From positions 8,356,135 to 8,420,134 of the forward strand of contig OZ005692.1 of the NCBI GenBank assembly GCA_963930775.1: a DNA stretch of 64,000 nucleotides, given 5' to 3'. The position numbers were made by a program, and so were the translations under genes. This stretch comes from Cliona cf. orientalis. Its lineage: Eukaryota > Porifera > Demospongiae > Clionaida > Clionaidae. This document shows, in pieces, positions 17,665 through 48,159 of this stretch. The notes under the pieces are model-generated. The model saw only the letters and a list, made by a program, of their open reading frames with translations. It was not told the origin of the DNA and made no database searches. Position 1 is the first letter of the stretch. Every line of letters begins with the position of its first letter.

Positions 17665-17922
17665 ATATGGAGTATCCGTGCCATCCCTACTTATAGAGTC
17701 TACCGACTCTATGATTATTACTATATTATAATATTGTGATTAAAATTGTGTACAATGATAGCAGCTAGCTATAATATTATTATTATTATAAAGGCCATGG
17801 CTACCGGTAATCCCATTGCCTCAGGGTGAACCTGGCCCTAGCTCTGACGATTCACTGTACATGTACCTCCCTAGCTGCTCTAGCTAGATCTATAATATTT
17901 ATTATACCCTATTATACTATGA

Positions 17923-18144
17923 TACCGTATAGCCGGAAAATTTGGCGGGGAATTAAATTTGGCGGTTTGGCGGTCTATATTGCAACCGCCAAATTAAAAA
18001 TCCGCCAAAATTTCCTACTCGCATATATACGTATGGCGATCCCGTACCGAACCGCCAAATTTAAATCCGCCAATATTCTTCTAATAGCGATTTGGGGCTC
18101 AACCGCCAAATTTAATGCCCGCCAATATTTCCGGCTATACGGTA
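17923..18144 (+). mobile_element. TACCGTA-type MITE, family 1 (GCCGGAAAATTTGGCGG)
   Basis: The element starts TACCGTATAGCCGGAAAAT and ends ATTTCCGGCTATACGGTA. Its interior is built from repeated CCGCCAAATTTAA motifs on both strands. A second copy lies inverted at 33319-33545. Confidence 0.85.
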
Positions 18145-19042
18145 ATATTATGTATATTATAATATATCTGAAGAAGGCCCGGGGTTTTATCTTCCATAAT
18201 AATTAGTTATGTCATATTGTGTCCCCCATATAATATATTATTATTATTATGTTTGATATAGGGATTGTATGCATATGGGTACCGGTGAAAAGAGTTTGTG
18301 CCGAGGCACATGCCCATGCATGGTCAATTCACGCTCATGGAGGAATTAGGCCTATTACGTACCGCATGCAGTGTATACGTAGTCACAACAACCGGTGTCG
18401 ACCACACAAGCTCAGTACAGTATAATACGTATTATGCGCGTAACTACTCGCTAAAATAAAATACTCGCGCTAATTTTATAGTTGCGCATGCGCAAAAATA
18501 GGCGTGTCACTTAGCGTGTAATTACACAACCTCCACTTCCGGGATATGGATACTGTACATGTATGGCGCCGATCCGGCTAATCTGGCACCTTCATGATAT
18601 TTACCGCGCACTTGACTCGTAATTAGAATCGAATCGTGCTGTACTGTCATAGTACATGCTAGAGTCTAGAGTATAGTACAGGCAAGACGTATGAAAGTCT
18701 TTGTTGTGGCCAAATCAGGTATCGCGTGTTTGGGAAGTTTATCGGCAGTCATCGGTGGCAAAGCTCAGGGTATTCTGATCAGTCACGACCCAGTAAGAAC
18801 CCAGCAGTCCCAGGGACTGGAATACTAAAATCGCTGAAGGTGAGTTTATAGTGTATGGCGAACTTTCCAGACCAGTGCGGTCATACTGTGCCGCGCCGTG
18901 TGGACGTGGGTCGTCACGATGGGGCGGCGCCGTACGCCGCCCTCAGTTCAGATCAGTACACCCACTAAGTTTGTGTTCTGTGTATGTTTTAATATCAGTT
19001 CATTTCATACTTTGCAGAGTCACTGTTTGTGTATCACCAGTC

Positions 19043-22000
19043 ATGTCTACAACGACACAGCAGCGACAACTCGTGAATCAGCGCAAAAGGAAGCATTTGA
19101 GGAATCAAAAGAACGATGATGCCAACAGAAGAACTAAGAGGCGTCGTTTAGACCCACTGGATGACAATACGCGTAATGGAAATAAGGTTGTGATGAAATC
19201 AGAGGATAATTTTCAAGAGTTTCACAGTATATCGCGCCCACGATTGCTCCCAAAGCGAGGAATTACCAGTATGAAACGTTCATTTGACAGCAGCTATCCT
19301 GATGCTCATCATAGTAGCATATCAGATCATAGCAGTCTAGAATCGATGGCTAAAGAACTTAAACCGAGCTATGGCAATCAATACTCGCAGAGTCCCGGCA
19401 GGAATGACGAAGCTCCAAGATCACTGGTTCATGAGAATGAACCCCAGCAATTGTCGATGTTGGCATGTGGTATGAAACGTCATAATCCTGAGGACCCATA
19501 TGCGATAGAGGGCAAAGACATTGGTATGAATCAACGAATCAAAAGTGAAGCAGTATCGCCAGACTCTTCTCCTTTAAGTTCACCACATCCAATCTTACCT
19601 CTGAACTCAAACATCGTCCTTGAAGGCTATGTACATACAATGGCAAGCCTCGATGCTGGAGCGTGTGTAGCAGCGGCCTATCTCCAGCCCGATAAGAAGG
19701 CACCTTCAAAGAGGAAGAGACGCTCCAGTCGTTGGTGCAGAAGGAAAGTCAGGTCAAAGTCCAAGCTAAATGATGAATCGGCGGTATTGGATGCTACATG
19801 CAGTCCTAAGCAGGTTGTATTGAATGTCGAAGAATCAACTGCAAATCCAGTAATCTTGAACGTGAGTGGGGTTGAGAATGTCATCCCCGTTATCACCTTT
19901 AGTGGGATGAAAATGCCTCCCTGTGCTGTTTTGGTGGAGGGACTCGAAGACCAGCCAAATGAGCAAGGCCAAGTATCGTACAACACTATGGGATTGTTAC
20001 ATAATGGCGATACACTGCACCCTCATGCAAAGGTGTTCTTAGAAGGCAGTCATGAGCTCCACCTACCCAGTAGAATTATCCCTACGCTAGTTCCAGCGAG
20101 GCAGTCGACTGTCAGGAGAGCTGTAAGGAAAGCTATTTCTGATGGTATCGCTCGGCGTCATAGGAAACCAGCCAAGGTATGATGTAGCTACATGTCGAAC
20201 AATAATTAATAATAATATTATTATTGTAGTGAATGCTATAAAGTGGGGCAGATATTTGTGTGAAGTAGATAGTGTTATCCTCAGCACCTCATATTCTCAT
20301 GTAACGCCACTACAGTCACACCCCCAGCTGTTGCATGCATTTCTATCTGTTCATGACTGGTAATGGTGGCAATATGGATGCTAATGATGTGATAATGTAA
20401 AGGCCGTAAAAATGTTTGTGTCAATGTTGCAGAGAAAAAATAACGGATGGTGTCCGCTTGGAGAGCCAATCAAGGTGATCGAAAATCAGACTGAGGTAAG
20501 TATAGGACATTCTACTGTTATTGTGAAATAACACTGTTACGTTGAGCAATTCAATACTCTCGGCCCATTATGGCTGGCTGGAAATAAGAGTGGGAATAGA
20601 ATTTTGGTGGTTGGATTCCAAGTTCAAGGGTTGATACGGAATTAATAAGAGGGTTATCTAGGATTGCCAACGACAGTCCTAGGACGTCCCCAAACCCCTA
20701 TCCCCCAACCCCAAACCCAAACCCCACCCCCATCCCATACCCCAACACTAACCTGGGACATCCCAGGACACGTGATGGCAATCCTGGACATGTATGATTA
20801 ATAATAGTTCAGGGGTAAATAATGCTGATCCTTTGGGAGGGGGAATCAGTCATATTTAATTTTTTATTCTCTATGAAAAACGTGACCAAATCAGATCTTC
20901 AGAGAATGCATAAAGTTCGACCAGTGGTACCATAGGTTTCATCATACATTACACCATAATTACCTCATAACCACAGAAAAGTGAATTGCTACTGGGGAGT
21001 AATGTAAATTTGATAATTTCTAGGGACGGGTAATACACCTCCTCCTCAGGGATGGGAAATCTGTATGCTCCCCACCCTCTGAATAAACGTCTGATTCAGA
21101 AGTTGATTGTTGGCATGACGTCGCAATAATAACATTGTTATGGTAGTTTCGATTTTAGTATTGCACAGGATACCAGCATAACTGGCAATGAGAAGTATTG
21201 CAGCATGCTATACTGGCTCCGTGCTGGAATGGCTCGCGAGGAGTTAGAAAAATTTCGACAAGTGAAAAAAACAATCAAGGCATAAAGCGAGATTTGAACC
21301 TGCTACATTCTGTTCCACACGCAGGAGCCCCAACCACTACACCACCGCTGTTATCACTGATGCCAATCATTATTTCCCCCTTATCATAGACAAACCCTAG
21401 AGACTAACCCTGCTAACAATTGGTAACCCATCCCCAACCCCTCCAGCCCCTCCCATCCATATCGCGTATATAGAGACTAACCCTGCTAACCATTGGCAAC
21501 CATCCCCAAACCCCCCAGCACCTCCCATCCATACTGCGTATACGTATATTAGTATGCGTGAGCAAACCATTGTTGCACGCGTTTTGCGCCGATGTTGCGC
21601 GTGCCTCTCTATGGCCATTCTAACACATCGCACGGAGCCATTGTGGCACGCTACAAGTATTTTTGATTGATCAGCTTAGAATTAAATTTTGTGTCAATAC
21701 GGTATCTATAAACCACAAGCGGCATACAGAATTAGGTACCGAGAGACAGGGTGGAGATCATGATAATCAATATGATAGTAGCTACATTATGTGTGCTAGA
21801 CTTTGTGGCTATGATGTCATTTTTCATTATAGGGACTTTGCAGAGCCTACTATGCTGGCATTAAAAGAAAAAACGAGGTAAAAGTCCTTTTCGACTATTG
21901 CATAATGATTGCTGTGTATGCTAGTCTATATCTGCCACCTACATAATATTATAGTAATAAAGGGTATTATTATAGGAATGATGTAATGCATGATTGCTTT

Positions 22001-25000
22001 ATTGTTTATGCTGTTGCATCATTAACTTGCAGGAAATATTTGTAAGGGACTGTGTTGTAATCAACGCTGGCACGGAGAAACGGAAAAGCTCGTATGTTGC
22101 CAAGATTGGAAGCATCTGGCGAGAATCAGGTATGAGACGTGTCACACTAATAGGAATCTTAGAGCCATTGTGATTATTACTGGGGAAAAGGCCATAGAAT
22201 TAAAGATGTAGCAATCCCATTTCTAATTATTCAGCACTTGTACTAATTAGTCCACGCTCCTTAACAATAATATTATTATTTGTCTCTAAAATTAATTTTA
22301 GATATTTGGCGAGAACAGACAATAATAAATGAGTTTGTGCCACATTTTTAGAAGAAAGTACCGTAGAATCCCGCGATTACGCCCCCCCTTGCGCATAACC
22401 CCCCTGCATTTTTAGCTCAAGTTCCTGCATAGGTAGTTTTGTCTCGCGTATAAGCCCCCCCTCCCTGACTGTAAAATGGAGTCCATAAGTCAATAAAAAC
22501 AGTAGCTACAGCTAGCAAACTAGCTATTTGTATCATACTATGCCTTACTTTGTCGTTTTACTCGAGTTTTGCCCACCAAACAGCCAGAGATCGCGCGCCC
22601 ACGTGGCATTCGACGACTGGTAATGGTCGTCACACGGAAATGTAAGGATCCCGCGTATAAGCCCCCTCCCCACTTTTGCCCAATCCTAGCATGCACAAAG
22701 GGGGGGCGTATTCGCGGGATTCTACGGTATGTATGTACCTGGCAGGTACAATATAATTTTTCGGAGGGGGGGGGTGGATGGAGGGGGATTGGAAAGTCGA
22801 GGAAAGCCCTCAAAATTACTTCTTGCTTTTCCTGACTGCAAGTCTGAGAGCATAGCACTGTGCCAGCTAATAGAAAGAAATTTACATTAGCTAGAACACC
22901 ATTAGAGTCGAAGATGCCATCGGCTAGAGGACAGTAACAATTGTTGCTTGCTAACACTGAGAACAATTGGTGGGTGGTGCTGTCGTGTGGAGGCATCAAT
23001 ATTTGTCAGTAGAAATGTTTATGACTACCAAATCAAATACAAATATGGCAAAAATGAACACCCTGCAAAAATTACGAACTGGCATGCAATATAGTATTAT
23101 TGTAGAAAGCCCCTCTATGCTACATGTAGTTATTAGTGAGGTGTGGTCTATCACGACCTGTGAGAGGGTCAGCTTCTGATAGTGGTGTCACATAGAGGAT
23201 GGGTGCATGAAAGGAGTGGGGGTCTACTACCACGATCCTATGTGGAGCACGGGCACTTATCTAATTATGGGAGAGTAGTGGTCTGTATTATTAAATTTAT
23301 CAATCATGGTATTGGTCGGTTAAGTTACGCCACTTTAAAGCATTTGACGAATACGTAACATTGCATAATTGAAGTGTGCTACTTACATATATACATAGTG
23401 ACCCTTTACCATACAGTGGGGCGTTTCAAATCAGGATTAATAATAGTTATTAATCTTGTACATGTTCATTGCTGTGTATTAATGTTCTCTTCCTGTTTTT
23501 AAATTTGCTATCAGAAGCTCAGTAATTATTGTGCAATTGATTAGGCCACAATGAGGTTTTATACATGGAAATTATGCGAAGTGAATATCAAAATAATCAA
23601 CAATTCAAGTTTGATGTCTTGAAAGCTTTAATTTGTTTCTCTATGATTTGATATGCAGACGGTGCTCTAATGATGACAACATTTTGGTACTACCAGCCTG
23701 ATGATATCGAGGTCCGCCACGCCGGGATACAGTGTGTTGAGGTAAATAATTATAATAATATAGTGCGGGAAAATGTCATACTTTGTGCAAACTAACAAGA
23801 TACCACAAATAAAATTGTAATCACATGTTCAAAAACACATATGTTGTATTAACCTAATAATGAAAGTGCATTTTAAACGATAACGTGGGCTGGGATTGTT
23901 TCCGGAAAATTTTGATCGACCCCTCAATGCTAAGGCCATACCTATTTGATATGTTGTTGCTCGGACATAGACCAGTGAAAATCAGAGTCGGTCGGTCGGG
24001 AAAAAAAATGAAAAAGAAAGCAAATAACACCTCACTTTACCATGATAGAGAGCCAAACAGTTGTCATTGTGCCTGATCAGACAGCATATGACACACGGTG
24101 CGCATGCGTGCAATGTGTTGACACACCCACTTTTTTTTTTATAATGGACAAACTGCAGGGTCGGTCGGGTCCGAGCAACAACACATTGAATAGGTATGGC
24201 CTAAGCGTTACAAGCTAGAACTATAAGCAGTCACTGTGAATGGCAGTCATGACACTACCCACTGGTACATGTACATGTGTACAAACCAGAGGAGGTTGAT
24301 CACAATTTTGCGGAATGTGCATTTTATTATCATACATCATATTATGCAATGTATTGTTTTTGCTGACTCAGCGGGTTGACCTGGGTTGCATTGCAGCCTA
24401 TGGTACACATGCTCCAATTAGAATCTGTGCACAAACACTAGCATCATCCCCAGTTACCTCGATCTACATGTAGCATTTAAAACATGGGAGTGGCCTGGAA
24501 ACAAGGCTATACAAACACAACCTGCCTCTCAGATAGACTGTACACAAACCAAGTTGAACCAATAATAGGTGTACATGACATTGCAGGGTTTTCCCCAGAA
24601 AAAATCAAAGGCAGGGTGAATGGGTGTTGGTTGGGCGAAGTTTTTGACCACATCAATCATTTTGGTTCCCACATCAATATTGAAGTTAGCCATATGGGGG
24701 TGGGGGGGGGGGGGCGTTTTGCCGAAGGGACCTGAGGAGAACACTGAATTGTATAGCGGCTGCTAAGTATATAGCTTATATCCGAATCGTCGTCACTGAG
24801 GTATATAATAGATTCCGTTGTTGGCCTCAGCAAACTAAGGAGGATGTTGGCCAGCTAATTGATTAGGTCATGTACTTAAACAGGATGTTGTAAATGTGCA
24901 TAATGTACACTCATGTCCATACGTGTACACTGTATGCCGCAATGCTACAGTGCAGCAGCATCATGCTCATGCTGTTTACATAATCTATACCCTATTAAAT

Positions 25001-28682: not shown

Positions 28683-31183
28683 TTACTGGTAAAGGTCTCG
28701 ATGTTGAGTTCGAATGTGATTCTGTAAGGTACCATTTAGACTAAATGCCTTACCACAGTGCTGGCACTTGTATGGCTTGTCTCCAGTGTGAGTTCGAATG
28801 TGATTCTGTAAGTTACAATTTAGACTAAATGCCTTGCCACAGTGCTGGCACTTGTATGGCTTGTCTCCAGTGTGAGTTCGAATGTGATTCTGTAAGTTAC
28901 AATTTAGACTAAATGCCTTGCCACAGTGCTGGCACTTGTATGGCTTATCTCCAGTGTGAGTTCGAATGTGCCTCTGTAAGGCGCCCCTGTCACTAAATGC
29001 CTTGCCACAGTGCTGGCACTTGTATGGCTTGTCTCCAGTGTGAGTTCGAATGTGTGTCTGTAAGGTGCCCCTGTCACTAAATGCCTTGCCACAGTGCTGG
29101 CACTTGTATGGCTTGTCTCCAGTGTGAGTTCGAATGTGTGTCTGTAAGTTACTACTTCGACTAAATGCCTTGCCACAGTGCTGGCACTTGTATGGCTTGT
29201 CTCCAGTGTGAGTTCGAATGTGTGTCTGTAAGTTACTACTTCGACTAAATGCCTTGCCACAGTGCTGGCACTTGTATGGCTTGTCTCCAGTGTGAGCTCG
29301 AATGTGAATCTTCAACTCACCATTAGATTGAAACCTTTTGCCACAGTGCTGGCACTCAAACGGCTTTTGACCACACATTTGCGAATGAATAGCTTTAGGC
29401 AAATAGTCGTTTGTGATTGAACATTTATTAATGTTTTGGCTTTCTTTACATTCATCTTGACTTGAACTATCTCTGTCGCTTGATTCTAATTTATTTTCTT
29501 GCTGCATATCTTGAGTAGTGATAGTCTCATGTCGCCTGATGTGATCTTGCAGCTGGTAGAGCTCGCTAAAGGTCTGTTGACATTTGAAGCACTTAAATAC
29601 TTGCGGGTGAGCCTTGGCACATGGAGCACTGTGTTTTAAATGAATTTGGAATGATCGATTTTCGACGAAGCCTGAACCACAACCCTGACATTTGTAGCAC
29701 GGATCCATTCCTAAGATAATATGTGGTGTATGTGTGTGATTCAAGTGTACCATAATTTGTGAAATTTTCGTTGTTAAAAAATTTTTGTTTTTATGCGAAA
29801 ATAGTTTACTTATACAGCAAATATATTATGGTGCATGAAATTAACGCGAATTACGGTATCAGTGACTGAGTGCAGTGGAATAGGAACTGGGGCAGGTGGA
29901 GGGAGGGGGGCAATAATTCAATAAAAGTAATTAAGGGGATCTTGCATACTAATTATTGTATAATATCGTTCAGATCAAGCCATCAAATTTTAAGCTGCCA
30001 ATAATATTCTTACAAAGGCAAAAATTAGGGACTCAATTGCCAAATTTAGCTGTATGGTATAATTCACCTGGTCTTATTGATATTCCAAGCTCTTGTGCAT
30101 ATTCGCGGCCATACCATACCAGCAGTTCACAGCCAGGATAGAGGTGCTTGAATGTGCGGTAATAGATCTCTCCTTTGTACTGGAAAGCAACCATGTTCTG
30201 TTCCTCTTCATGACGAGCGCAGTTGACAAAGCGAAGCCAGTTGGACTTAGAGGCATCTCGGCCATCGAGGAAGTACGGCTTCTGGCCATCTTTATGAATC
30301 TGGTACATATAAATTTTTAATTCTCTCACTGATTTGCAGGGCTGATTAAAGTTTGCTACACCAATCTAGTATCTGATTGATACACCATATTAATTAAATT
30401 TTTATGTTATTACCGTAGATCAGGATATTATCGCTGGTAAAATATTTGGCTTGTAAATTTTTCACGTAGTCTAAATTTCGTTGCCAGATTATAGCGACCA
30501 AAATAGGTATAGGTTGATGTACATTACTTTCGCTGGAAAAGGTTATTGATGAAAATTTTACAATGAAAATTTCGTGATCTACGGTATACCATAATGACTG
30601 TGTGTATGAGAGTAGTTCAGTATTGCCATGCCAATGATGTGTTGTCATGGCAATCACATGATATGCTACATGTACATCCTGTGAGTCTCAGAAATCACTC
30701 GAGACTATGGAAGTGTAAACAGAAGGAGTGTATGCATACAGTAAGCATGTAGGGAGCATGCAACCTATTGTACATGCATGTACCTCCCACATGTAGCTTG
30801 TATCTTCAATGTTCTCCATATCCTCCTTGAAGACCATGCTGCCTTGATACGGACCAACCTTCAAACCCCGAGGAATAAACTCCTTTGCAAACACTCCTAA
30901 TCCTGCAAGTACCATTCATAACATAAATATAACATTGGTAGTGCAAAAAGGTGTCATAGGCCACTCATTTTTGAGCCAGGGTTTCATCTAGCGATAAAAT
31001 TTGGGGTGGAAGTACGAGTGGGCGTATTCAGCATGCCATATTTTTAGGAGAATTTCTTTAGATTGTTTCGGGTAATTTTTGATCAAAAATAAATGCTAAA
31101 GGTTTGATTTGGCGACTTGTTGTGATATTATGATGCTTAATTTAATAGGGGGGGGGGGAGCTAGGGAGTTTGGAGGGGAAGCT

Positions 31184-31227
<44 letters not shown>

Positions 31228-32022
31228 CTGGATGAAACCCTGTGAGCAGTTGGATTTATTCAGTGATGGAAATTAAGCTCCATGCAAATATTATTGCACA
31301 TCAAAATTAGTATTCAATTTTCTTCCCCCCTCCCGCAATTGCAAAAATCCGGAACACTTCACCTGCATCAATGATATCAGATGTCTTGACAGTGAGTTGA
31401 GCTGGCACTGGTACAGTGGTATATGCCATGGAGTCCTTATCCCATCCCACACTGGGGTCTAGGCACCGGAGTGGACCGTGGATAGGACAATCACCATCAT
31501 AAACCTCTTCACAATCTTCACAGACTATAAAAGACAAGTGATCTATTAAACTTGGCAACCATATGCAGGGATTCCCCCAGAACAGAATTCAAATCGGGTG
31601 CTTAAACTTAATCAAATTGTGGCTTTAAATTCAACCCATTCTTTGATGTATACCAAAATCAAACCGGGTGACACACCCTGATTCAGGTATGCTAGGGGGT
31701 ATTATACATATAGGTATTCTGCCACATCAAAACGTAGCATTGGTGGCATGTATTTTGATGCCATACGGCTCAAGGAGGGTGTTAAGAAAAGCACTCAGAA
31801 TAATTCGATCATCTTACACAGATAGTCATCATCATCAGATATCTCCTCTTCACGGTAAATTTTCTGCTCTTTCACTCTCCTCCTGGGGTATTGATGGACA
31901 TCCACAGATGGAATATCAGTGCTAGCACTGCATGAAAGAAATTATGTTTGGGCTCACTTAAGTTATTGGATTCATGCGCGTGCCTAACCCCCACCCCGAC
32001 ACACATACACACATGCATTGTG

Positions 32023-32066
<44 letters not shown>

Positions 32067-34249
32067 TGTATATGTATGTATGCTCCACTGGTATAGTATG
32101 CTCTATAGACTTACAGATCTTCTAAAGTGAATCCCTTGAATTCAGTTCCAACATCAGAACTGTCTCCATCCCCAAACAGCTCTTTGCCCCTGTCATTAAG
32201 CTGGAAATGAAATGTGAATTTGGACTGAATGTCGTTCACCACAGCCTCAGGGGGAAATCCCCAGAAATCATCACTCTCTGACAAGTCTGAATCAAAGAAG
32301 TCAGGTAGTGGTCGAAGTGTGGATTCCTCAGGAGTACAGTTTTCAGATGACTCTAAAGTTGATACGGCTGACTTTGATTTTGGTTTAGAAGAACGAACTG
32401 GTCGTTTATTTGAAGATGTTTTCTTGGTCTGCGGCTGAAACACTTTGTTTATGCGTTTATCCTGTTACAGTAATCACAATAATTATTATTGGTTTTATAA
32501 TAATATTATTATATATAATATGACAAATGCACCTGGCCAGAGCTCTATGTTACAAAAGAAAGTAGTATTTTTCTCAAGCAGGGTCGCTTGGGTGTTAACA
32601 TTGATCACTATGTGGGGTATAGACCATGACATTACGTATTGAGAACCATCCCCAGGCTATAGCTGATGCTCAAGCACAAGAAGCAACTACATGATTAATT
32701 ATGCAGCTGATTATCATTGGTGAAAATTACTAGTATCTTACCACATTGTTAGTAACATCGGTCAGGATAACGTCTTTTGTTTGCAGGTCCAAGGCAGGTT
32801 TTGCTTTCGTGGTAGCTGTGTCAGGGAAAAGACTACTTTGATAGGTGTATAAATGGGATTTCTTGTTATGATATCCACATAAGTATTATGATATTGATAC
32901 ATAATCATCATCGTAACACTACAGCATGGAGGATATCACCACTTTACAGTGTAGTTAGTATCAAGAGTCAACTATTGAAATATGGGCAGAGTAGAAACCA
33001 TTGATCGATTTTACTTAGGTCAATAATTTTTTGCCTATAGCTACACATCATAAGATGGGTACCTTCTAATGAAGCTATCCCATCACAAGAACACCACAAT
33101 TTATAATATCTACACCCACGTACCTCTTCTTCTGGGTCTTTGTTTCTGTTCCTCCATCCATGGCTGCCACTCCTCTTCACTGTCTGAGTCATCCTTCACC
33201 ATCCTCCTAGCAGCCGGCCTCTTTCCACGCCCTCTCCTTCCAGACACTCGCTTTGCTTTCTGATCACCATCAACTGGATTCTTTATTGGAAGACCTATAA
33301 ATGTACATTAATCAGAAATACCATATAGGCGGAAATATTGGCGGGAATTAAACTTGGCTGTTGAGCCCCAAATCACTATTGCAAGAACATTGGCGGATTT
33401 AAATCTGGCGGTTCGGTACAGGATTGCCATACGTATATATATATATGCAAGTAGGAAATTTTGGTGGATTTTAATTTGGCAGTTGTAATATAGACTGCCA
33501 AACTGCCAAATTTAATTCCAAGCCAAATTTTCCGGCTATACGGTATGTCATACAGAAATGATTGTCAAGAAATATTAACTCCATACTTGTAGGTGCATAA
33601 TTATGCACCTATAAATATTATGTGGTGCCCAGTACCCCCTGTATGGGCAAGGGTGGGGCTAACAGGGGATTTGACTTTTTCTAAAAATGAATGCTCCCTA
33701 TGGGGGCAATAATATCTTTGAGTCAAACCGCTAGTATAAAGATAGCTAAATTGTTTTCTTTTTTGTATAGTTAGGCGATTTCCTGATTTATACCAGGTAG
33801 CTCAAAGATTTATGAAAATCAAAAGCCCCTGTACCCTCAGGGCTAGGTCAAGAAATCAATAATTCCCCCAACAATCCCCTGACTTCCCCACCTATGCCCG
33901 TACAGGGGGTAGTGGGACATATAATTGACAGGTGCATTATCCTCCAAGTGCACACAACACATATCTAAGCTTCTAGCCCCTGTGGAATGTCCAGGAAGCT
34001 AAATTGTGTTGCCAATAATAACACTAGACTTGGAATGAGTACTGGTGCATGCCAGAGTACTTTCTTACCTAGGCTCTTCATCATTTCCTGATTCCTTCTG
34101 ATATTATCCAGCCTCCTCTTCTCATAGTCGCAGAGCTCTTCTTCTGACTCACTCTCTCCAGCACTGGAGGACCAGCTCTCATCACTGTCACTCTCACTGC
34201 TACTGCTGCTACTGCTCAACTTTCTTCTCGTCCTCTTCCTCCCCGGCAT
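28683..34249 (-). CDS. PRDM9: PRDM9-like histone methyltransferase with zinc-finger array
   Basis: Nine exons: 34069-34249, 33124-33294, 32742-32815, 32115-32434, 31818-31927, 31363-31524, 30784-30902, 30068-30299 and 28683-29710. All are GT-AG and in phase: 798 residues (human PRDM9 has 894). In order: acidic/Ser-rich N-terminus; CDYEKRRLDNIRRNQEMM (about 40-57); DDSDSEEEWQP, as human EDSDEEWTP; SSXRD-like block ending SDDDDYLFCEDC (about 262-290); PR/SET domain (about 325-450) with AGLGVFAKEF, NWLRFVNCAR, MVAFQYKGEIYYR and CELLVWYGREYAQELGI. The three tyrosines catalytic in PRDM9 are kept (GPYQG, AFQY, VWYG). Then two degenerate fingers and eight C2H2 fingers with TGDKP linkers. No canonical KRAB box is seen. 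In vertebrates PRDM9 places H3K4me3 and H3K36me3 at recombination hotspots; a meiotic role here is inferred. Confidence 0.9.
28700..29363 (-). repeat. Coding minisatellite: eight 84-bp zinc-finger units
   Basis: Eight C2H2 fingers in tandem, most with the framework YKCQHCGKAFS...HIRTHTGDKP. Units differ mainly at the DNA-contact helix: SNGELKI, RSSNLQT twice, DRGTLQT, DRGALQR, LNCNLQN twice, LNGTLQN. Neighbouring identical pairs point to recent unit duplication or conversion. Confidence 0.92.
30411..30586. mobile_element. TACCGTA-type MITE, family 4 (GATCAGGATATTATCGC)
   Basis: It starts TACCGTAGATCAGGA and ends TTTCGTGATCTACGGTA. GGTAAAAT and ATTTTACAATG blocks pair inside. It lies in the PRDM9-like intron between the two SET-domain exons. 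Confidence 0.65.
30977..31242. mobile_element. MITE with CAGGGTTTCATC ends
   Basis: CAGGGTTTCATCTAGCG at the left is matched by CGCTGGATGAAACCCTG at the right, about 266 bases, in a PRDM9-like intron. It contains the poly-C tract at 31185-31226. Confidence 0.8.
31185..31226. repeat. Poly-C tract of 42 bases
   Basis: An uninterrupted run of C inside the MITE at 30977-31242. Its length may be inexact because homopolymers assemble poorly. Confidence 0.9.
32023..32063. repeat. (CA)n microsatellite
   Basis: About 20 CA units in the PRDM9-like intron between the exons at 31818-31927 and 32115-32434. Confidence 0.95.
33319..33545 (-). mobile_element. TACCGTA-type MITE, family 1, second copy
   Basis: Inverted relative to 17923-18144. 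It ends TTTTCCGGCTATACGGTA and holds the same GAGCCCCAAATC and CGTATATATA landmarks. It sits in PRDM9-like intron 1. Confidence 0.85.
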
Positions 34250-34821
34250 GATGACTGCACCACTAGGATCTTCTATATAGAATGGAAAAGACCCTGGAGA
34301 CTATCCCTGACAAACTATCTTACCCGAAACCCAACCTCTGACCCCACTCATACATGGCCTAGCTTGTCCATTGTTTATAGGAGAGCCCACCACTATCCGT
34401 ATGAAACTATGGCTGCATACTTTGCCTAAAATAAAACATATATTTGCATTTATCCGAGTGAAAGTGCTTGCATCCAGACCATGCACTATCTAATTTTTTT
34501 TTGTAAAAAATACTTAAATTCCTACCCACTAACAATTATTTTTGAAAACATGTCTAGTTCTAGAGTTGGTATAGCTAAAAATTTACGTACTTTGAGCACT
34601 ACTTTCTTTTTGATGGGATGTATTCGGTCTAACTCAGTCCAGTAGAGTATAAAATTTGACGCTGAATCATTCGGTCCTGAAGTTGAAGCTGCCTGCATGC
34701 ACTGGATCCAGCTGCTATGATTTCCCGCCATAAGGCGGCGCGCGCAATAGGACCTTTTGGCTGTACTTTGAACTTTAGGTTTATGTGCGAAGTGCGCGTC
34801 ATATGGAAATTCGTGGCAGAG
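34250..34821. promoter_or_regulatory. Shared upstream region of the PRDM9-like and JARID2-like genes
   Basis: The two genes point away from each other with about 570 bases between start codons, or about 470 if the upstream ATG at 34717 is used. Transcription of both probably begins here, so a bidirectional promoter is likely. I see no clear TATA box and have not identified specific binding sites. Confidence 0.5.
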
Positions 34822-37800
34822 ATGTGGAGGCAGGAGGGAAGGCGAGTGAGAAATCGCCAGGTAAACCTTTGTATTTACATAATCTGTATCGAAGTGTAAG
34901 GAGATGTTGCTTTTCTTATTAAATCACAAAAAAATTAAATATCATTATTTACCCTCTGCACATGCTTCTGTAGATAGTGTAATCCACTACGGTATATATC
35001 TTGAAGTGTCTATGCTTTTCTCTTCCTCCTAGTCCTATGGCGTGGTTGGTCTCCTCCCAGCTGAAGAAGCTGCCATAAGAAAGGCTTTGAGGGAGTCCCT
35101 ACGAACAGCAGCCGTGGAGAAAACAAGAGATGATTCGTCGTCATCATCATCATCATCTGACTCTAGTCCTTCTCCCTCACCCAAGGAACAACATGTAGGC
35201 TCAAAACGCAAAGCTGAAGTCAGCAGCTTGCAATCTCACCCACCATCTAAACGAACAAAACTAAAAAAGCAAAAGAACCAAGCTTCATCATCACTTCCTA
35301 CATTCAACAGGACACTTAGTACGAAGAGCCCCTCCGAACTTTTAGCTTGCCAGAGTCCAGTGAGAGTAAGTGTACCATCTTCACCAGTGCGCAACCATAG
35401 CAGTCCGATTATTTCTGATAGTGGCTCGCTGAAACTGATCCTAAGCTCTTCATCTGATTTATCATCTGGTACTCCATCTCCTTCTAGCAGCCACCAAGAT
35501 TCTTCTTCAAAGTCAAAGAAAAAACCTGCAAAAACGACTTCCAAATCTTCGAAAGTTAAGAGAGTTCTACTAGCTGAATTCTCCACATCTGCTGGGGTAA
35601 AGGCTAAACCTCTAAAGGGCAAAGGAAGCAAATCCACACCAAAGCTTAAACGAAAGAACAACGACAAGTGTATAGGTGATGGAGCTGGTAAAATCAAGAC
35701 TGGAAGAAAGAAACAGCATACTCTTCATCAAGATAGTAAGGATAAGGCAGCGAAGGCTAAAGAACAGAAAACCCCAGGAAAGAAAGAACAAAAGAAGGTG
35801 TCCATGAGACTAGCTGACACTTCACCCATAGGCAATGGACTATCGTCAACACTCACTTCAGTAAACTTCCCTGATATTCCAGATGAAGGTCCTGCAGAGA
35901 TAGTCTCTGAAGATGCTGGTAGTGCTGGTAGTGCAGTTAGGGCTGAGGTTGGTGACTCAAAGGAGGAGGAGGAGAGAGAGGATAAGCAGCAGCTACAAAA
36001 GACGACAACCTTCACTTGGTATGAAATTTTTTAATGCAGTCATTTAATAGATATATCATACATGTATACCGTAGAATCCCGCAGTTACGCCCCCCCCCCC
36101 TTGCGCATAAGCCCCCCTGCATTTTTAGCTCAAGTTCCTGCGTAGGTAGTTTTGTCTTGCATATAGCCCCCCCCCTCCCTACAGCAAAAGGAGAGTCCAT
36201 AGGCCAATAGAAATAGGAGCTACTGCTAGTAAACTAGCTATTTGTGTCATATTATGCCTTACTTTGTCGTTTTTCTTGACTTTTGCCCGCCAAACAGCCA
36301 GAGAATGTACAGAGAACATGCGCCCATGTGTCATTCGATGGTCGGTAATGGTTTTCACGCGAAAATGTAAGGATCCCGCGAATAAGCCTCCTCCCCACTT
36401 TTACCCAATACTAGCATGCACTAAGGGGGGGGCGTAATCGCGGGATTCTACAGTAATAATTTTTTTGAGGCTGTGCAATCTTTTGTGCTTGTAGCGATTT
36501 TATGGCACACAGATTACCTGATACATGTATTACAATGTATATTATTTCACTCTAGATCTGATATCATCACACATGTGATTATCTCAAATTAGGCATCTAA
36601 TTATCTATTTGCTTTCCATCTATCCCTAGCTCATACTCAGCCCAGAGGAAGTTTGCTTCTAACCACACTCCTCCAGCAAGGTACTTGTACATGCATGTAT
36701 GTCTGCAGTCTGTAGTGTAACCTACTGTGAGTCATAGCCTGGCGTTTTATAACTCATTGTGGTGTTAGGAATGACACCAGTATATATGCTGTAACATTAG
36801 CATAAACACGATACTGTTATGATATGTGTTCAAAATTAATGGTGATGTATCTTGCTGTAGTACTTGTGCCATGTAATCTAGCATTTCATGTACACAATAT
36901 TATGATCAATACAGATGCCCTGAGCAAGTGATAGAGAGTCACTTACACTTAAAGGAGGTTCCAAAAACAGAAGACTTCATAACTTTCCTCTGCTTACGAG
37001 GTATATTATGATCTACATTGTACATGTAAATGAGATAAAAGCTGGAGTGCCCGGGGGGGGGGGGGGGGGGGGTGGATATACGTACAATGTATACCATCTA
37101 TAGAAACATTAATTTTATCAAAGTACACAATATTATTGTATTCTCTTCCCCAACCTAAATCCTCTATGAAACATACTAAACTTTGATGCATAACACAATG
37201 TCATGTATTGCACATGTACATACATTTTATAGGTAGTTCGAGTTTACCAGAAGCTCTAAGGAAGTTCTCTCAACCCTGGACACCTACTCTCTACAAGAGG
37301 TCAAAGACAGTGCGTGTGAGGAGTGCAGATAGTGGAAAGGTACATGTTCATATCATTAAGGTTTAGTCTCAATATACCATGCCGTTCCATAGTCATGTAT
37401 AATATTATTATACAAACAAAACATACTTGCAGTCACCTAAGCTATTGTGTGATATCAGCATTGTTTAATGGCACAGGCATAAATAATAGTTAGAGACAGA
37501 GTGCAAGGTCTCTACGCATTTTAAGAGACCCAAAGGCCCGAGGCTGTAGCATCCCATGCGAAGCGAGGGTGCTACTAAGGGCCGGAGGGTCTCTCAAAAG
37601 TGTAGAGACCATTGGATGAGGTCTCCAACTGATTTAGAATATATCCAGACATTTGGCCTGGGGACTGGGCCACTGTTGCACTGTGCATCTTTTTTTTTGC
37701 CCTTGGAAGCTCAATAATAGACCTCCTCTCAAAGAGGTCTCTAAGTGAAATAGTAGACCTCCAACTGACCAATCAGATTGCTGTATTTGTTACAACTATA

Positions 37801-38807
37801 TTCTAATTAACCTCGGCGCATGCGCTGCAGGGCTACGGTAATCGTTCTATCTATCTCTGTGTGTGTCTGTTACCACGAAATCTGCTGCCTACCTCATTTT
37901 TACATTGCTACAATGTCATAGTTTGGTGTTTTCAACGTTTATACCGTTTCGCTTTCCAAAATACTTCATTCAAGAATTCTGGAGCCATACATGTATGTGG
38001 TCACTGCCGCCTTCCTTGCTCCCTGGTGAGCTTTCAATGGATAAATGAGACAGCAATGGCTTCTTTATAACTCGAAAAGTATACATGTATATTGTTAGTT
38101 ATAGATTCAGTAGCACGACTGGTTCATCACTGATCGTAGCACACTGGCAGAGAACCATCTTGGCTATCTCTGCATGCTATAAACTGCTGACACAGCACTG
38201 CACACGTGATACTGCTGGACATTACGCAATCGCGTTCCATGTGCATTCTTGTCCATCTGAACATCTTAGTAATGCTGGATATGCAGTAGCCACTGCTTAG
38301 TGCTTGTCCCAAGGTTTTACACTATAGTGCTTCATTATTATAGTTACACCAAATAATTTTCCATCATTGTGTGTGATGTATTATTCACAATGTTATGTAG
38401 ATTTCCAAAAGCCGTCAGTGTGGAAGTGCTGCCAAGAAACTGGTCTACCCTAACAGGTACGTGTACACATAACTGCACATAGCCAGAATATTATTGGTAG
38501 GAATTAAATTAGATTTGGTGATTGAATTTAACTTTCTTTGCAAGAGTATTCATTCCTTGCTGTGTGGTTCTTTAGAGCTAATTACATGTAGGTAGCTCAT
38601 GTGTGCATGAGGGCGGGACATAGATCACATTATTATTCCTGACAACATGGCCATAATAACTATATTTTCCATCAGAAAATACATGTGTACATGTACATGT
38701 ACATTACACTGACTATTTTTTGAAATTTAAGATTGTTCTTTTTTTTAACTTTCTGCAGCTCTGTTGTTTCTGGTTCGAAAGCCACCAATCATGTTCTTCA
38801 AGTATAG
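34822..38807 (+). CDS. JARID2: JARID2-like PRC2 cofactor, N-terminal part only
   Basis: Seven exons: 34822-34860, 35033-36018, 36630-36680, 36915-37000, 37233-37339, 38401-38456 and 38759-38807. All are GT-AG and in phase: 457 residues (492 if the ATG at 34717 is used). Three vertebrate JARID2 features occur in the right order: a basic start plus helix LLPAEEAAIRKALRESL, where JARID2 has its ubiquitin-interacting motif; SAQRKFAS, matching the QRKFAQ site (K116) that PRC2 methylates; and KTEDFITFLCLRG, matching the SUZ12-binding segment. K349 is 28 residues before the TEDF motif (38 in human). Between lies a Ser/Lys-rich disordered region. The model stops 285 bases before the next gene, so JmjN, ARID and JmjC domains are absent. 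A nuclear PRC2 role is inferred. Confidence 0.82.
36067..36455 (+). mobile_element. TACCGTA-type MITE, family 2, second copy
   Basis: It starts TACCGTAGAATCCCGCAGTT and ends AATCGCGGGATTCTACAGTA. The interior closely follows 22359-22729. Intron 2 of the JARID2-like gene. Confidence 0.9.
37053..37072. repeat. Poly-G tract
   Basis: About 20 consecutive G in intron 4 of the JARID2-like gene. The exact length may be an assembly estimate. Confidence 0.85.
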
Positions 38808-39092
38808 CTGGGTAGGCTACTAGGTTTGTTAATTTCATTATTATTGTCATGCCACAAGTACTCCATAGACCACAGGTAAATAAGTAGTCAGTCAATTCCC
38901 TTTCCATTTTTCAACCATCAACACTTTCTTTTATATTAATAGTAATTAACGTATTTACCCAAATTTAATAATCTAAACGTTTGGATTATGTTATACACAT
39001 GGGACAGTGTTTACATGAAATTAATTCATATCGTACACTGAAACTGAAATTCCACACAAAACTAACTACGTACAGATACTTAGTCTACCTAG

Positions 39093-41426
39093 CTATATAC
39101 ACTGAAACTGCCACACTTGTCCTTTGTTATCCTTGCTACTGTCCACCCGCCAGTAGTATGTAACTCCTGGTTTTAGTTCTCCAGACAAACTCACAATATT
39201 AGCTGGGGCGTTGAGCTGACAAACTAGCTCAGGTGAGGAAGAATCAGCGGTAGCAATAGTCATCTCATTTGTACCAAAGTAGACATAGTGTGATTGAGCA
39301 TCATAGCCAGCCAGCCACATGAGGTCAGCGTCACACTTTGCTGTGGTTGTTCCATTGGGAGGAATGGGCATGCTGGCTAGTAGCTGCTGGCGTCCAGGGA
39401 TCCAGTAGACACCACCAATACTGGAGTCATGACCACAACTACCAGCTGGGCTCACAGACTCTTTACCATAAGGTCCAATGCCTTTAGCAAGATAGTCTGA
39501 ACCTTTAATAGGTCGAAAGTCCAAGTTGTCGGGGTCCCTGAGGGATTTCCTCACGTCTCCCTCGACATTGTTAGTGAAATTTCCAGGCAGTTTAGTAAAC
39601 GTACAGTTTTCATCTTTAAAATCAGGGCAGGCTCCATGCTGGAGAATATTTCCAGTTGTCACCGTGTGTGCATCTTCTCCTTTGGCCCCGTTTCCCGGGT
39701 AACCTAGCAGAGATAGATCATATGGCTTTTCGTTATCAAACGATAGGTTATTTTCCACATGGTGGTCATCTCCTTTGATCATGAGCCCACCAGTTTTCCA
39801 GATCACATTGTATCGTACTGTGCCATTGTATCCCCATGGTGCATTGGGTTTCATCTCTCTATCAAACCTAAGACCGTACTTTTGAGTATCATAGCTCCAA
39901 TTATACTCCAGTATGGTTCCATTCTGAGCTTCCACCCCTGTCTGTACATGAGATCCATCATCCTGTAAATATTTCAAGTCATAGAACAGATTAAGGCAAA
40001 CGTTGGCTCCAGTTGGTAGGCCAAGTTGTCTATCCTTAGCTGATCCACTTCCAGGAGAAAATCCAACACTCGGACCATTACTGTGAACTGTGTTTCGAAT
40101 GAAGTTATCCCTAACTCCATCAGATTTAAACAGAAAGCCGTTTCCCACGCATGTGAAATCGTTGTGGTGCCATAGGTTGTTCTCAAACACACCATCTGCT
40201 CCCCTGTAGCTCATAGTCTGACCATCAGCATACTCCCACGTACAGTTGAAGACAATGAAATTCCCCGCATTCTTCGTAAGTAGTCCATTGTAGTAGATGG
40301 TGGTAGTGTTGGGAACAGCTAGTGATCCTAGCATTCTCTTAGAGTACGATGGATAGCTGAAGTGAAGGGATTCCAATCTAATGTTGCTAACATCGCTTAT
40401 TTTGTCTTCGCCTTTGATAAATACAGTTGTGGCTATGAAGGTTAAGTTGGATAGAACTAGCCAGGTTGAGTTATTTGTAATCGTGAATGCATAAGTTGAT
40501 GTTTTGCCCCGAATATCATGGCTTCCCGGGTTTTCAGAATCCACCGTCCATAAATAAAGCTTCTTCATTCCTTTATCATAGAACCACTCACTCGGAGAAT
40601 CCAAGAACTCCAGTTTATCTTCAAGGAAGTACCGAGAGTTCTGACCGTGGAATTTTACCCCTCCTGTTAGTGGCTTCTCCAGAGCAAAAGCAAAGCTATC
40701 TTCCCCTGTATTGTGTTTATCCACCGCCCCAGCCCATGTCAGCCAGCTTCCAATGTTTAGAATAGCAATAGCTCCAGTTGCATTCAGTCCTGACTTGGCC
40801 AAACCTTGTGTTCCATTGTCCACAATAATCCCCTTTCCGGTAGGTGGGTCAAAGGTTGATTTGGCATCGGCAAATCCCCACTTTGTGTAGTCAAAGACAG
40901 AGTAGTCGTACCAGAATGCATTGGGCCATCGAGCATTGACCTGCATCTCTCCATCGACAAACAGCTGCCAAATGTCCTCCTCCAAAGTTGTCACATACAT
41001 GCTGTCCTTGTACTTCTCCCAGGTGCTGGTGATGGGAACTGTCCCGTCAAAGGTGACTCTCTCTCCAGGATAAGACCTGAATACTATCGGGTTTCCTTCA
41101 GTTCCTTGAAGGCCGCTAATAGTCACTTCTTCATAGTAGACTCCGCCTCTGATGGTGCACACATCTCCTGGGGTTAATACTGCGACAGCCTTTTGTACGT
41201 GTTGCCATGGTTTCTCTAGAGTTCCTGGATTGCTGTCATCACCATCGACTGATACAAAGTACTCTGCTGCTTCATTGTGTAGAAACAGCAATGCTAATAC
41301 TTGCAAGAGAGTTAGACATTTCAAAAACCCCATGGCGACCCTTTTTTTTTGAGAGTGCACGTTTAGCATCATAACACTGGATTCATTGGGTTGGTGTATC
41401 ATATGATCACTATCAAAATTATTCAT
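39093..41426 (-). CDS. Secreted right-handed beta-helix protein 1
   Basis: An intronless ORF of 777 residues. The most likely start is the ATG at 41333 (746 residues), because a clean signal peptide (MGFLKCLTLLQVLALLFLH) follows it. The mature start EYFVSVDGDDSNPGT and GDVCTIRGGVYYEEV are typical of pectate-lyase-like right-handed parallel beta-helix proteins. QLFVDGEMQVNARWPNA is a block common in bacterial members. Many N-x-S/T sites suggest an extracellular glycoprotein. The end holds ADLMWLAGYDAQ, YVYFGTN and YYWRVDSS, a small module usual in planctomycete and related bacterial enzymes. Polysaccharide binding or cleavage is possible; catalytic residues cannot be assigned. It is very similar to the gene at 48160-50427 and less so to the one at 45673-47919. 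Confidence 0.88.
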   Translation of the reverse strand: MNNFDSDHMIHQPNESSVMMLNVHSQKKRVAMGFLKCLTLLQVLALLFLHNEAAEYFVSVDGDDSNPGTLEKPWQHVQKAVAVLTPGDVCTIRGGVYYEEVTISGLQGTEGNPIVFRSYPGERVTFDGTVPITSTWEKYKDSMYVTTLEEDIWQLFVDGEMQVNARWPNAFWYDYSVFDYTKWGFADAKSTFDPPTGKGIIVDNGTQGLAKSGLNATGAIAILNIGSWLTWAGAVDKHNTGEDSFAFALEKPLTGGVKFHGQNSRYFLEDKLEFLDSPSEWFYDKGMKKLYLWTVDSENPGSHDIRGKTSTYAFTITNNSTWLVLSNLTFIATTVFIKGEDKISDVSNIRLESLHFSYPSYSKRMLGSLAVPNTTTIYYNGLLTKNAGNFIVFNCTWEYADGQTMSYRGADGVFENNLWHHNDFTCVGNGFLFKSDGVRDNFIRNTVHSNGPSVGFSPGSGSAKDRQLGLPTGANVCLNLFYDLKYLQDDGSHVQTGVEAQNGTILEYNWSYDTQKYGLRFDREMKPNAPWGYNGTVRYNVIWKTGGLMIKGDDHHVENNLSFDNEKPYDLSLLGYPGNGAKGEDAHTVTTGNILQHGACPDFKDENCTFTKLPGNFTNNVEGDVRKSLRDPDNLDFRPIKGSDYLAKGIGPYGKESVSPAGSCGHDSSIGGVYWIPGRQQLLASMPIPPNGTTTAKCDADLMWLAGYDAQSHYVYFGTNEMTIATADSSSPELVCQLNAPANIVSLSGELKPGVTYYWRVDSSKDNKGQVWQFQCI

Positions 41427-42128
41427 TGCATGTACACGAAAAAAATAACTGTGTTAGATAATGAATCACTTGATCACATCCCCATGCACTGCCAGTATCT
41501 CTTCTACACTAGGTTCGAATTCTGGGTCCCAATAATTAATGTTCATGTGAGCTAAACATTTTGAAGCAATCTTCACAACAATTACATTCAGTATAGGTTT
41601 AATACCTCATAGGTTGGCCAAATTTTTTATTAATTTTGATTGAGTTTCGGGATGTAATTAATTTTACTTCATAATTATTATTGCCACCAACATGATTGTG
41701 ATCACAGGTATGCATTAAAATGGAATTAGTTTCACTGCTGCAATAACATCCTAGCTGTATTTGTGTGGTCCATTACTCATACTTACATCATTATGACATA
41801 ATAATAATATTATGTCACAACTGTAATTAAGTAGACAACCTTCATGGGATTCTAGGATGACAATAACTTGAAATTCAATAGCTATGCAGAAGACAAACTA
41901 TACCGGTAACCATAGTTACTACATACTAAATCTTGCTGCAGTAGATCTACTCTATACCACATGCACAGTACTTGGTACAGTGGTGTAAGTCTTTGTAACT
42001 ATTACATCATTACATTTCACTGAATATAAACATTGCATTGTAGTTTATACTATAAATAGTTTTAAATTACTGCGCATGAGCCAGTCATGTGCATGGGGTG
42101 TGAATCGAATGGCATGGCATGTGTAGTT
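41427..42128. other. Intergenic with a repeat fragment
   Basis: About 41503-41600 (ACACTAGGTTCGAATTCTGG and following) matches 17460-17550. The rest is AT-rich with no recognised gene. It separates two divergent genes, so both promoters lie here. Confidence 0.55.
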
Positions 42129-44290: not shown

Positions 44291-45672
44291 CGAAAAAATG
44301 CCCCAATCGCTAATGTTACTATGATAAGTGCAATCCAAAAGAACAATCATGCTTGCATACGTAGTAACCATATTAAATTATGGATAACTGAGTACTATGT
44401 TATATGATACTTTCATGATTAATTTTTTTATGCCAGCTTATTACTATGATGAATTCTTAGCCATAGAGTCTTTAATAACTACTGTAATTAATCGAGTACA
44501 ACGTATGATCCAATTTAACGTCATTAATAATTTTTACTCTCATAACGCGGAGCGATTGACGACCTTTACCAGAAAAGCGCGCATTTTTAATTGCAATTAT
44601 CTTTTTTCATACTATTAAGTTATCTCCCCAGTAGCAATTTACTTTTCTGTGGTTATGAGGTAATTATGGTGTAATTATGATGAAACCTATGGTGTAATCT
44701 CTTAGGTAATCTATGAGGTAATTATGAGAAAATTCAGGGCCTTGCTGGAGCCTTTCTGGGACTTGAAAATCAGTAAATATGTAGAGTATCTTACGCGTGT
44801 ATCCAGCGAATACATTACAAGCCGGGCGCTACTTTCTCTGACATGTCTGAGAAGTACTGTTGGTTGAACCTCACGTGTTTTCTTGGCTTACGTAATGCCG
44901 TGGATAAATAAAGCTAGCCTTGCGCTATATATAGCACGCATTGTCACAAGGGGCTGGCCCGTGCGCGACTGCAGCAGCGTGACCAACCTGAAGTTCGGAA
45001 GGAATACTGTACTGTCGAGTTCGTCTCTGTGATTGAAGCATTGAAGCTTGTCGCTGTCAAGGCTGAGAGGCCATCTCCATGATTTCTGGGGCGAGCATCG
45101 ATCGGTGTGTACGCATTCTATTGACGACCTTTTACCACATGCACCATTACACTATGCAGCTACTGGGGAGATGGTCAAGGGTTCATATATACCGTATTCA
45201 GATTATAACTATTTCTGTCCATCCTTGCATTTAGTCATGCAGAATGATATAGAGAAAAATAAATCAGCTCAGGTGACGAAGAGTCAGCGGTAACAAAAGC
45301 TGTCTTGTATAGTGTGATATCAATTGAGCACCATAGTCAGATCGAGGGTCTTTCAATAGTTCCATGCTGGCCTTCTGACAGTGGCTCTAGTATCATAACT
45401 GAATTCATTGGGTATCACAATTATAATCATTAGTATGTTTTAATTGCGTGCACACATAAAAGTAGCTAGCAGCCTATTGCCCATGTATGCCTGAAGCAGA
45501 TCTGGAGAACAATAATATCTACTGTAATGCATTATGAACAATACCATGTATATATCTCATCACAATGTCATTGAGTCCAATAAGGTCATACGTATACCTT
45601 ATGAATATAATAATATTATAGGTAGTGAATAATGGACTAGCTAATAATTAGCTATAGACTAGAAATAAAAAT
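44291..45672. other. Intergenic with a repeat element
   Basis: Contains the element at 44626-45167. Near 45250-45300 a short stretch (CAGGTGACGAAGAGTCAGCGGTA) resembles the 3' coding part of the beta-helix genes, read in antisense, and may be a small leftover of duplication. No intact gene is seen. Confidence 0.5.
44626..45167 (-). mobile_element. Nonautonomous element, copy 2 (inverted)
   Basis: It begins CCCCAGTAGCAATTTAC and ends GCAGCTACTGGGG. It is the inverted counterpart of 16736-17210, with the landmarks ATCCAGCGAATACATTA, GGATAAATAAAGCTAGCCTTG and CACATGCACCATTA. The copies are clearly diverged. Confidence 0.7.
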
Positions 45673-47919: not shown

Positions 47920-48159
47920 ACCAATGCTCTAGCAATTTATATTATGTGATAAAATATTCTAGACACAGCTTACATGAACTCCCTACCAAACATATTATTG
48001 TGCTCTGTATATTATCATACTTTGCTGCTATTCTATTGATCTGTTTTTTATGTGCATAATAATAATAATAATATTATTATAATTATGATTGCTAATGTGG
48101 TGTTAAAATTATTCATTGAAGTTAGGTTGCATGACCGCATCTTATGACCTTGGAAGGCC

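Follow-up and report, generated by a model that had tools for sequence, protein, structure and literature searches.

A minus-strand gene in a 64,000-nucleotide stretch of the sponge Cliona cf. orientalis (contig OZ005692.1; the window) runs from an ATG at 34249 to 28683 and encodes a predicted PRDM9-like protein of 798 residues. From the summed evidence it is likely an orthologue of the PRDM9 lineage, with a PRDM9-class PR/SET domain, two N-terminal blocks collinear with those of human PRDM9 and a single-exon array of zinc fingers that varies at its DNA-contact positions. A sequence-only reading of this locus had proposed a PRDM9-like gene complete apart from a canonical KRAB box, joining in order a DDSDSEEEW block, an SSXRD-like block, the PR/SET domain and tandem fingers. 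Most of this architecture holds, and the N-terminal half requires revision.

Gene structure

The nine in-phase exons of the sequence-only reading were reassembled exactly (Table 1). All 8 introns are GT-AG, all phases match, and the 798 codons are followed by a stop and interrupted by none. The open reading frame (ORF) containing the ATG opens at 34300, after a stop just upstream. Exon 4 gives no Pfam match, and its alignment to human PRDM9 scores 19, which is equalled by 3412 of 5000 shuffles. Two sequence features lie within introns of the gene: a run of 42 C at 31185-31226, a possible weak point of the assembly, and, inside the first intron, one copy of an inverted dispersed repeat pair (17922-18144 and 33319-33546, ~84-90% alike).

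The PR/SET domain most closely resembles PRDM9

Pfam PF21549 matches residues 330-452 (E value 4.1e-44). The best chains in the PDB are mouse and human PRDM9 (E values 6.1e-47 to 5e-44, 153-163 bits), followed by PRDM14 (4e-28, 101 bits), PRDM12 (1e-27, 100 bits), PRDM11 (3e-25, 92 bits) and then others, giving the PRDM9 chains a lead of 52-62 bits over the next class (PRDM14/PRDM12). Identity to PRDM9 is 79/168 (47%). When human PRDM9 is itself the query, PRDM11 scores 159 bits and the other listed classes at most 85 bits; the sponge protein and PRDM11 are therefore at approximately equal distance from PRDM9.

The three catalytic tyrosines of human PRDM9 (Y276, Y341 and Y357) align with Y358, Y426 and Y442 and are all kept, as the sequence-only reading had stated. 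The passages of Baker et al. (PMC5519329) used here list these tyrosines and report them unsubstituted in every complete orthologue, with losses in some partial ones. No relatives of the PR/SET region were confirmed in genome contigs or viral contigs.

The N-terminal half carries a likely KRAB-A half box and a tryptophan block

Upstream of the PR/SET domain, exons 1 and 2 align with two blocks of human PRDM9. The segment DYEKRRLDNIRRNQEMMKSLGL aligns with the second half of the human KRAB-A box, with a score of 58 that no shuffle out of 5000 equals; for VKDDSDSEEEWQP against human VDDTEDSDEEWTP the score is 47, and 13 and 11 of 5000 shuffles attain it in two runs. The whole helix and EEW region scores 84 (0/2000 shuffles), and residues 1-278 against human residues 1-198 score 97 (0/2000 in each of three block shuffles, 1/2000 in a free shuffle; 41 when reversed). 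Because the aligned segments were picked after inspection, a control across the window weighs more. When 2730 stop-to-stop segments of the window are scored against the human PRDM9 blocks, the best segment for the second half of KRAB-A is the exon 1 ORF (51; next 38) and the best for the EEW block is the exon 2 ORF (47; next 34), and the two matches stand in PRDM9 order.

Exon 1 likely carries the second half of an ancestral KRAB-A box. Its homology is likely rather than proven, since short helices of the form YExxRLxNIxxN also arise in unrelated proteins. Exon 1 ends at an SLG in phase 1, the same point at which we take the KRAB-A exon to end. Lorenz et al. (PMC8835667), in the sections consulted, describe ancestral KRAB (aKRAB) boxes as having E at A24, a gap-KR stretch that replaces VMLE and then PxxFM, with a conserved W at B31 in PRDM9; the ancestral-KRAB set given there holds 666 entries, all bilaterian. 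By our own mapping of A24 and B31, the sponge helix has E at A24, an I-gap-RR stretch and a later W at longer distance. The DDSDSEEEW block of exon 2, present as first described and the best window segment for its human counterpart, corresponds to the conserved block that follows KRAB in PRDM9 and contains this tryptophan (aKRAB-B W31). Its assignment as an SSXRD was rejected; Pfam places the SSXRD of human PRDM9 at 171-201.

Pfam reports no KRAB match in the sponge protein, while human PRDM9 gives KRAB at 1.9e-7. Taken by itself, neither the human KRAB second half nor the human EEW block gives a KRAB or SSXRD match in Pfam, so Pfam cannot judge a half box. Against the PDB, the N-terminal helix finds unrelated proteins (best E value 0.36). 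For the first half of KRAB, the highest-scoring piece of the window (42) spans 16 residues at 46840-46887 (minus strand); it runs antisense to a GH141-like ORF and was rejected.

No SSXRD is recognised

The SSXRD-like block of the sequence-only reading does not stand. Pfam recognises the domain in human PRDM9 (1.1e-16 at 171-201) and SSX1 (4.8e-13) and finds none in the sponge protein. Compared with the human SSXRD, exon 5 scores 26 once DDDYL is excluded, a value reached by 1293 of 5000 shuffles. With DDDYL and the start of the zinc knuckle the score rises to 66 (0/5000 shuffles), the signal being carried by that stretch. Exon 5 scores 35 against SSX1 (110/5000 shuffles). Among the 2730 window segments, none in the frame of the gene is picked out by the human SSXRD (top score 33); exon 5 is outside the five best, one of which is antisense to exon 4. 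The gene may contain a strongly diverged SSXRD copy. Since no SSXRD was recognised, we do not file the gene as a complete PRDM9.

The zinc-finger array varies at DNA-contact positions

Exon 9 gives 10 zf-C2H2 matches in Pfam, with 8 tandem fingers after two proximal ones, and Tandem Repeats Finder resolves the array as an 84-base-pair (bp) unit in 7.8 copies, bearing out the C-terminal tandem array of the first reading. Two pairs of fingers, 2/3 and 6/7, each share a single DNA sequence. Once the five codons of helix positions -1, 1, 2, 3 and 6 are set aside, fingers 2-7 differ in DNA by one synonymous base only. Finger 8, compared as protein only and as far as the second-histidine region, ends in HIRTQH instead of HIRTH (a longer H-H spacing); among fingers 2-8, all protein differences up to the second histidine fall at the same five positions. 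Finger 1 differs from the others at several further positions.

Following Baker et al., we calculated the share of amino-acid diversity at contact positions, noting that the positions chosen here may differ from those of PMC5519329. Fingers 2-8 have a share of 0.79 at -1, 2, 3 and 6 and of 0.58 at -1, 3 and 6; with finger 1 included (fingers 1-8), the two values fall to 0.64 and 0.49. Table 1 of PMC5519329, as consulted, gives 0.331-1.000 for complete vertebrate PRDM9 (human 0.687, mouse 0.910; one NA), 0.158-0.331 for SET-only copies, 0.224-0.524 for SSXRD-SET copies and 0.314 for KRAB-SET. The sponge share (0.79/0.64) lies inside the range of complete PRDM9 and above SET-only copies. The chance that 5 random variable codons among 28 all fall in the five helix codons is 1e-5, and that at least 4 of 5 fall at -1, 2, 3 and 6 is 2e-4; these probabilities and shares are rough, given the few fingers, and measure rapid evolution within the array of one haplotype. 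The array looks driven toward rapid change at its DNA-contact positions.

Comparison with known PRDM9 and related genes

The sponge gene is like complete vertebrate PRDM9 in its best PR/SET match, zinc knuckle, three catalytic tyrosines, PR/SET spread over three exons and one finger exon of 84-bp repeats with diversity at contact positions. It differs in that it has a likely second half of KRAB-A only, no PxxFM and no detected SSXRD, and in the longer linker from the KRAB-like helix to the tryptophan block. Of the vertebrate order claimed by the sequence-only reading, the PR/SET domain, fingers and tryptophan block are retained; the SSXRD is unsupported, and the likely half KRAB-A box had been overlooked. 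Teleost PRDM9 also has its PR/SET over three exons, with sizes like those of mammals, and its fingers in one (PMC11600626), a layout that the sponge gene matches.

PRDM11 shares the zinc knuckle, a PRDM9-lineage PR/SET and a weakly supported grouping with PRDM9 and the sponge protein. The sponge protein is much closer to PRDM9 (153-163 versus 92 bits) and has a finger array, which PRDM11 is not known to have. Likeness to SSX and other aKRAB proteins lies in the I-gap-RR and E at A24 as mapped above onto the description in PMC8835667; the sponge helix matches the SSX1 KRAB weakly (score 32, reached by 24/5000 shuffles). SSX is not known to carry a PR/SET domain.

PRDM9 outside vertebrates is already in print. 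Oliver et al. 2009 (PMC2779102), in the portion consulted, report Prdm9 with concertedly evolving fingers in Nematostella (sea anemone), Lottia (snail) and Capitella (polychaete), with positive selection at -1, 3 and 6 in the Nematostella fingers. The sponge gene resembles these invertebrate genes and their concerted fingers by description rather than by sequence comparison. A 2026 review (PMC13186367), in the text used here, cites Oliver 2009 and Ponting 2011 for full-length PRDM9 homologues in cnidarians and sponges and infers that PRDM9 was therefore present in the animal ancestor; the gene described here would be one of that set of sponge homologues, known there by mention only. No study of a sponge PRDM9 array was among the matches listed in a search of the literature on sponges and Porifera. 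One survey, in the part seen, found the PRDM family only in metazoans (PMC2082429). The present gene is an added example, not a new kind of gene.

Table 1. Exons of the PRDM9-like gene and the repeat encoding its finger array (window positions)
Feature	Position	Strand	Content and basis
Exon 1	34069..34249	-	Residues 1-60 + 1 base; start codon, Ser/acidic stretch, likely second half of ancestral-type KRAB-A box DYEKRRLDNIRRNQEMMKSLG at 34129-34069
Exon 2	33124..33294	-	Basic stretch and DDSDSEEEW...PWM block; DDSDSEEEW at 33193-33167
Exon 3	32742..32815	-	No recognised domain; placed by phase and GT-AG only
Exon 4	32115..32434	-	Acidic linker, no recognised domain; placed by reading frame and splice signals only
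Exon 5	31818..31927	-	Linker with DDDDYL at its end; probably the SSXRD-like block of the sequence-only reading
Exon 6	31363..31524	-	PR zinc knuckle (CEDC...C.IHGP; PF18445 E value 0.0015, below its cut-off) and PR/SET start
Exon 7	30784..30902	-	PR/SET; catalytic Y358 at 30849-30847
Exon 8	30068..30299	-	PR/SET; catalytic Y426 at 30161-30159, Y442 at 30113-30111
Exon 9	28683..29710	-	2 proximal fingers, linker, 8 tandem C2H2 fingers, stop
84-bp minisatellite coding for finger array	28705..29356	-	Tandem Repeats Finder

Neighbouring features of the window

Head-to-head with the PRDM9-like gene lie exons resembling JARID2, a Polycomb cofactor, at 36630-37340 (+). Their joined pieces match N-terminal Jumonji/JARID2 (E value 1.6e-6) and include AQRKFA and PKTEDFxTFLCLRG. 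An ORF at 35033-36034 (+), which has no Pfam match, probably belongs to the same gene by position only and opens ~0.8 kilobases from the PRDM9-like start codon. Three long single-ORF genes at 39096-41453 (-), 45658-47916 (+) and 48148-50424 (+) probably encode beta-helix proteins that are secreted; each has a weak match to a GH141-like insertion domain, in one case below the Pfam cut-off. The first and third are inverted copies, 86-95% alike, and the third has six bacterial relatives at 21-25% identity. Long ORFs at 57006-61355 and 62622-63998 (+) match Chlamydia PMP-type repeats, the second also beta-helix. Two tandem sulfatase ORFs (2-718 and 1023-2489, minus strand) are 79% alike across 203 bases, and two long ORFs without a Pfam match (10018-11409 and 18797-20179, plus strand) share, by eye, a related C-terminal half. 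A further dispersed repeat pair lies at 22399-22706 and 36112-36431 (~84-90% alike). One repeat pattern had no match in viral contigs, another stretch of that repeat had none in plasmids, and neither an Rfam family nor a tRNA gene was detected.

Interpretation and alternatives

The best PR/SET match, the two collinear N-terminal blocks, the three tyrosines and the single-exon minisatellite array that varies at its contacts all agree with the PRDM9-class identity first proposed for this gene. With moderate confidence we read it as an animal PRDM9 orthologue that predates the split of vertebrate PRDM9 and PRDM11 and most likely functions in the manner of its vertebrate counterpart. The finger array would bind a specific DNA motif, and the PR/SET domain would trimethylate nearby H3K4 and H3K36 in meiotic cells, both the methylation and the germline expression being predictions. 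The KRAB-like helix and tryptophan block may then help to carry the bound motif to the machinery that makes the breaks, which would form there. The gene is probably a hotspot designator, this being its most likely role because the array carries the within-gene mark of an arms race.

Several observations weigh against this reading. The PR/SET trees, a check proposed in the sequence-only reading, were built on rows from PDB alignments, several of them fragments; the present tree has 12 rows and an earlier version 10. Both trees omit PRDM16, whose alignment is split, as well as redundant PDB chains for human PRDM9, PRDM1 and PRDM2; PRDM4 and PRDM10 are absent from the 10-row tree only. The sponge protein joins PRDM9 and PRDM11 outside their own branch (95/95), with weak support of 74/70 in the 12-row tree and 75/81 in the 10-row tree. 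Grouping it with PRDM9 and without PRDM11 is worse by 9 log units (approximately unbiased test, p-AU 0.08 with 12 rows and 0.05 with 10), which fits a pre-duplication gene, short of proof. Its position is thus compatible with a gene older than the PRDM9/PRDM11 duplication; the tree by itself is indecisive. In the N-terminal half, a six-frame search of the window for the first half of KRAB gives nothing above 28 on the minus strand at 33900-39000, no PxxFM motif follows the half box, and Pfam, as noted, finds no SSXRD. The array has only eight fingers, from one haplotype. In vertebrates, loss of KRAB or SSXRD accompanies slow fingers, and swordtails, whose copy is of this kind, show knockout-like recombination, as reported in the relevant passages of PMC5519329.

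This incomplete N-terminal head leaves a real rival, namely a PRDM9 orthologue without a recombination role, a partial copy acting as a chromatin or transcription regulator. The half KRAB-A box, the lack of a Pfam match to SSXRD and the vertebrate precedent of slow-fingered partial copies all favour it, as does the requirement of mice for aKRAB (PMC11600626). Against it stand the retention of all catalytic tyrosines and the contact-position share of the array, set beside those of SET-only and SSXRD-SET copies, and we regard it as an unlikely but serious explanation. A transcription factor of another PRDM class, PRDM14- or PRDM12-like, might instead resemble PRDM9 through retained ancestral PR residues. 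The 12-row tree leaves groupings with PRDM14 (p-AU 0.31), PRDM1 (0.19), PRDM12 (0.10) and PRDM4 (0.07) unrejected, and the MWEI at the exon 7/8 junction is closer to PRDM14/12 than to PRDM9. The deficit of these classes in PDB score, the N-terminal collinearity with PRDM9, the DDDYLxC ahead of the zinc knuckle and the minisatellite finger exon make such an origin improbable. An error in the model, with SET exons and finger exon drawn from two genes, or a pseudogene, is more improbable still. The exon joins are read from genomic sequence alone, and for exons 3-5 sequence similarity offers little or no backing; on the other side are the canonical, in-phase junctions, the uninterrupted coding sequence, intact catalytic residues and finger ligands, and a finger immediately after SET, as in PRDM9.

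Implications for PRDM9 evolution

The date at which PRDM9 began to choose recombination sites is still debated. The 2026 review (PMC13186367), in the text used here, traces the gene to the animal ancestor and the hotspot function to the euteleost ancestor, leaving the function in between an open question, and another 2026 paper (PMC13320716), in the portion seen, depicts PRDM9 hotspots as gained in the vertebrate ancestor. The sponge gene is useful because it makes this open question of dating testable, in a species in which an ancient function can be sought directly. In vertebrates, rapidly evolving fingers are found as a rule together with complete KRAB and SSXRD, and the sponge gene bears on that rule as well. 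Tentatively, and against the likelier outcome, an early-branching animal PRDM9 with only the second KRAB half and the tryptophan block, and no recognisable SSXRD, may already have had a fast-evolving array. If so, the hotspot arms race would predate the assembly of the full KRAB-SSXRD head, and the essential head would be narrowed to the second-half KRAB helix and the tryptophan block.

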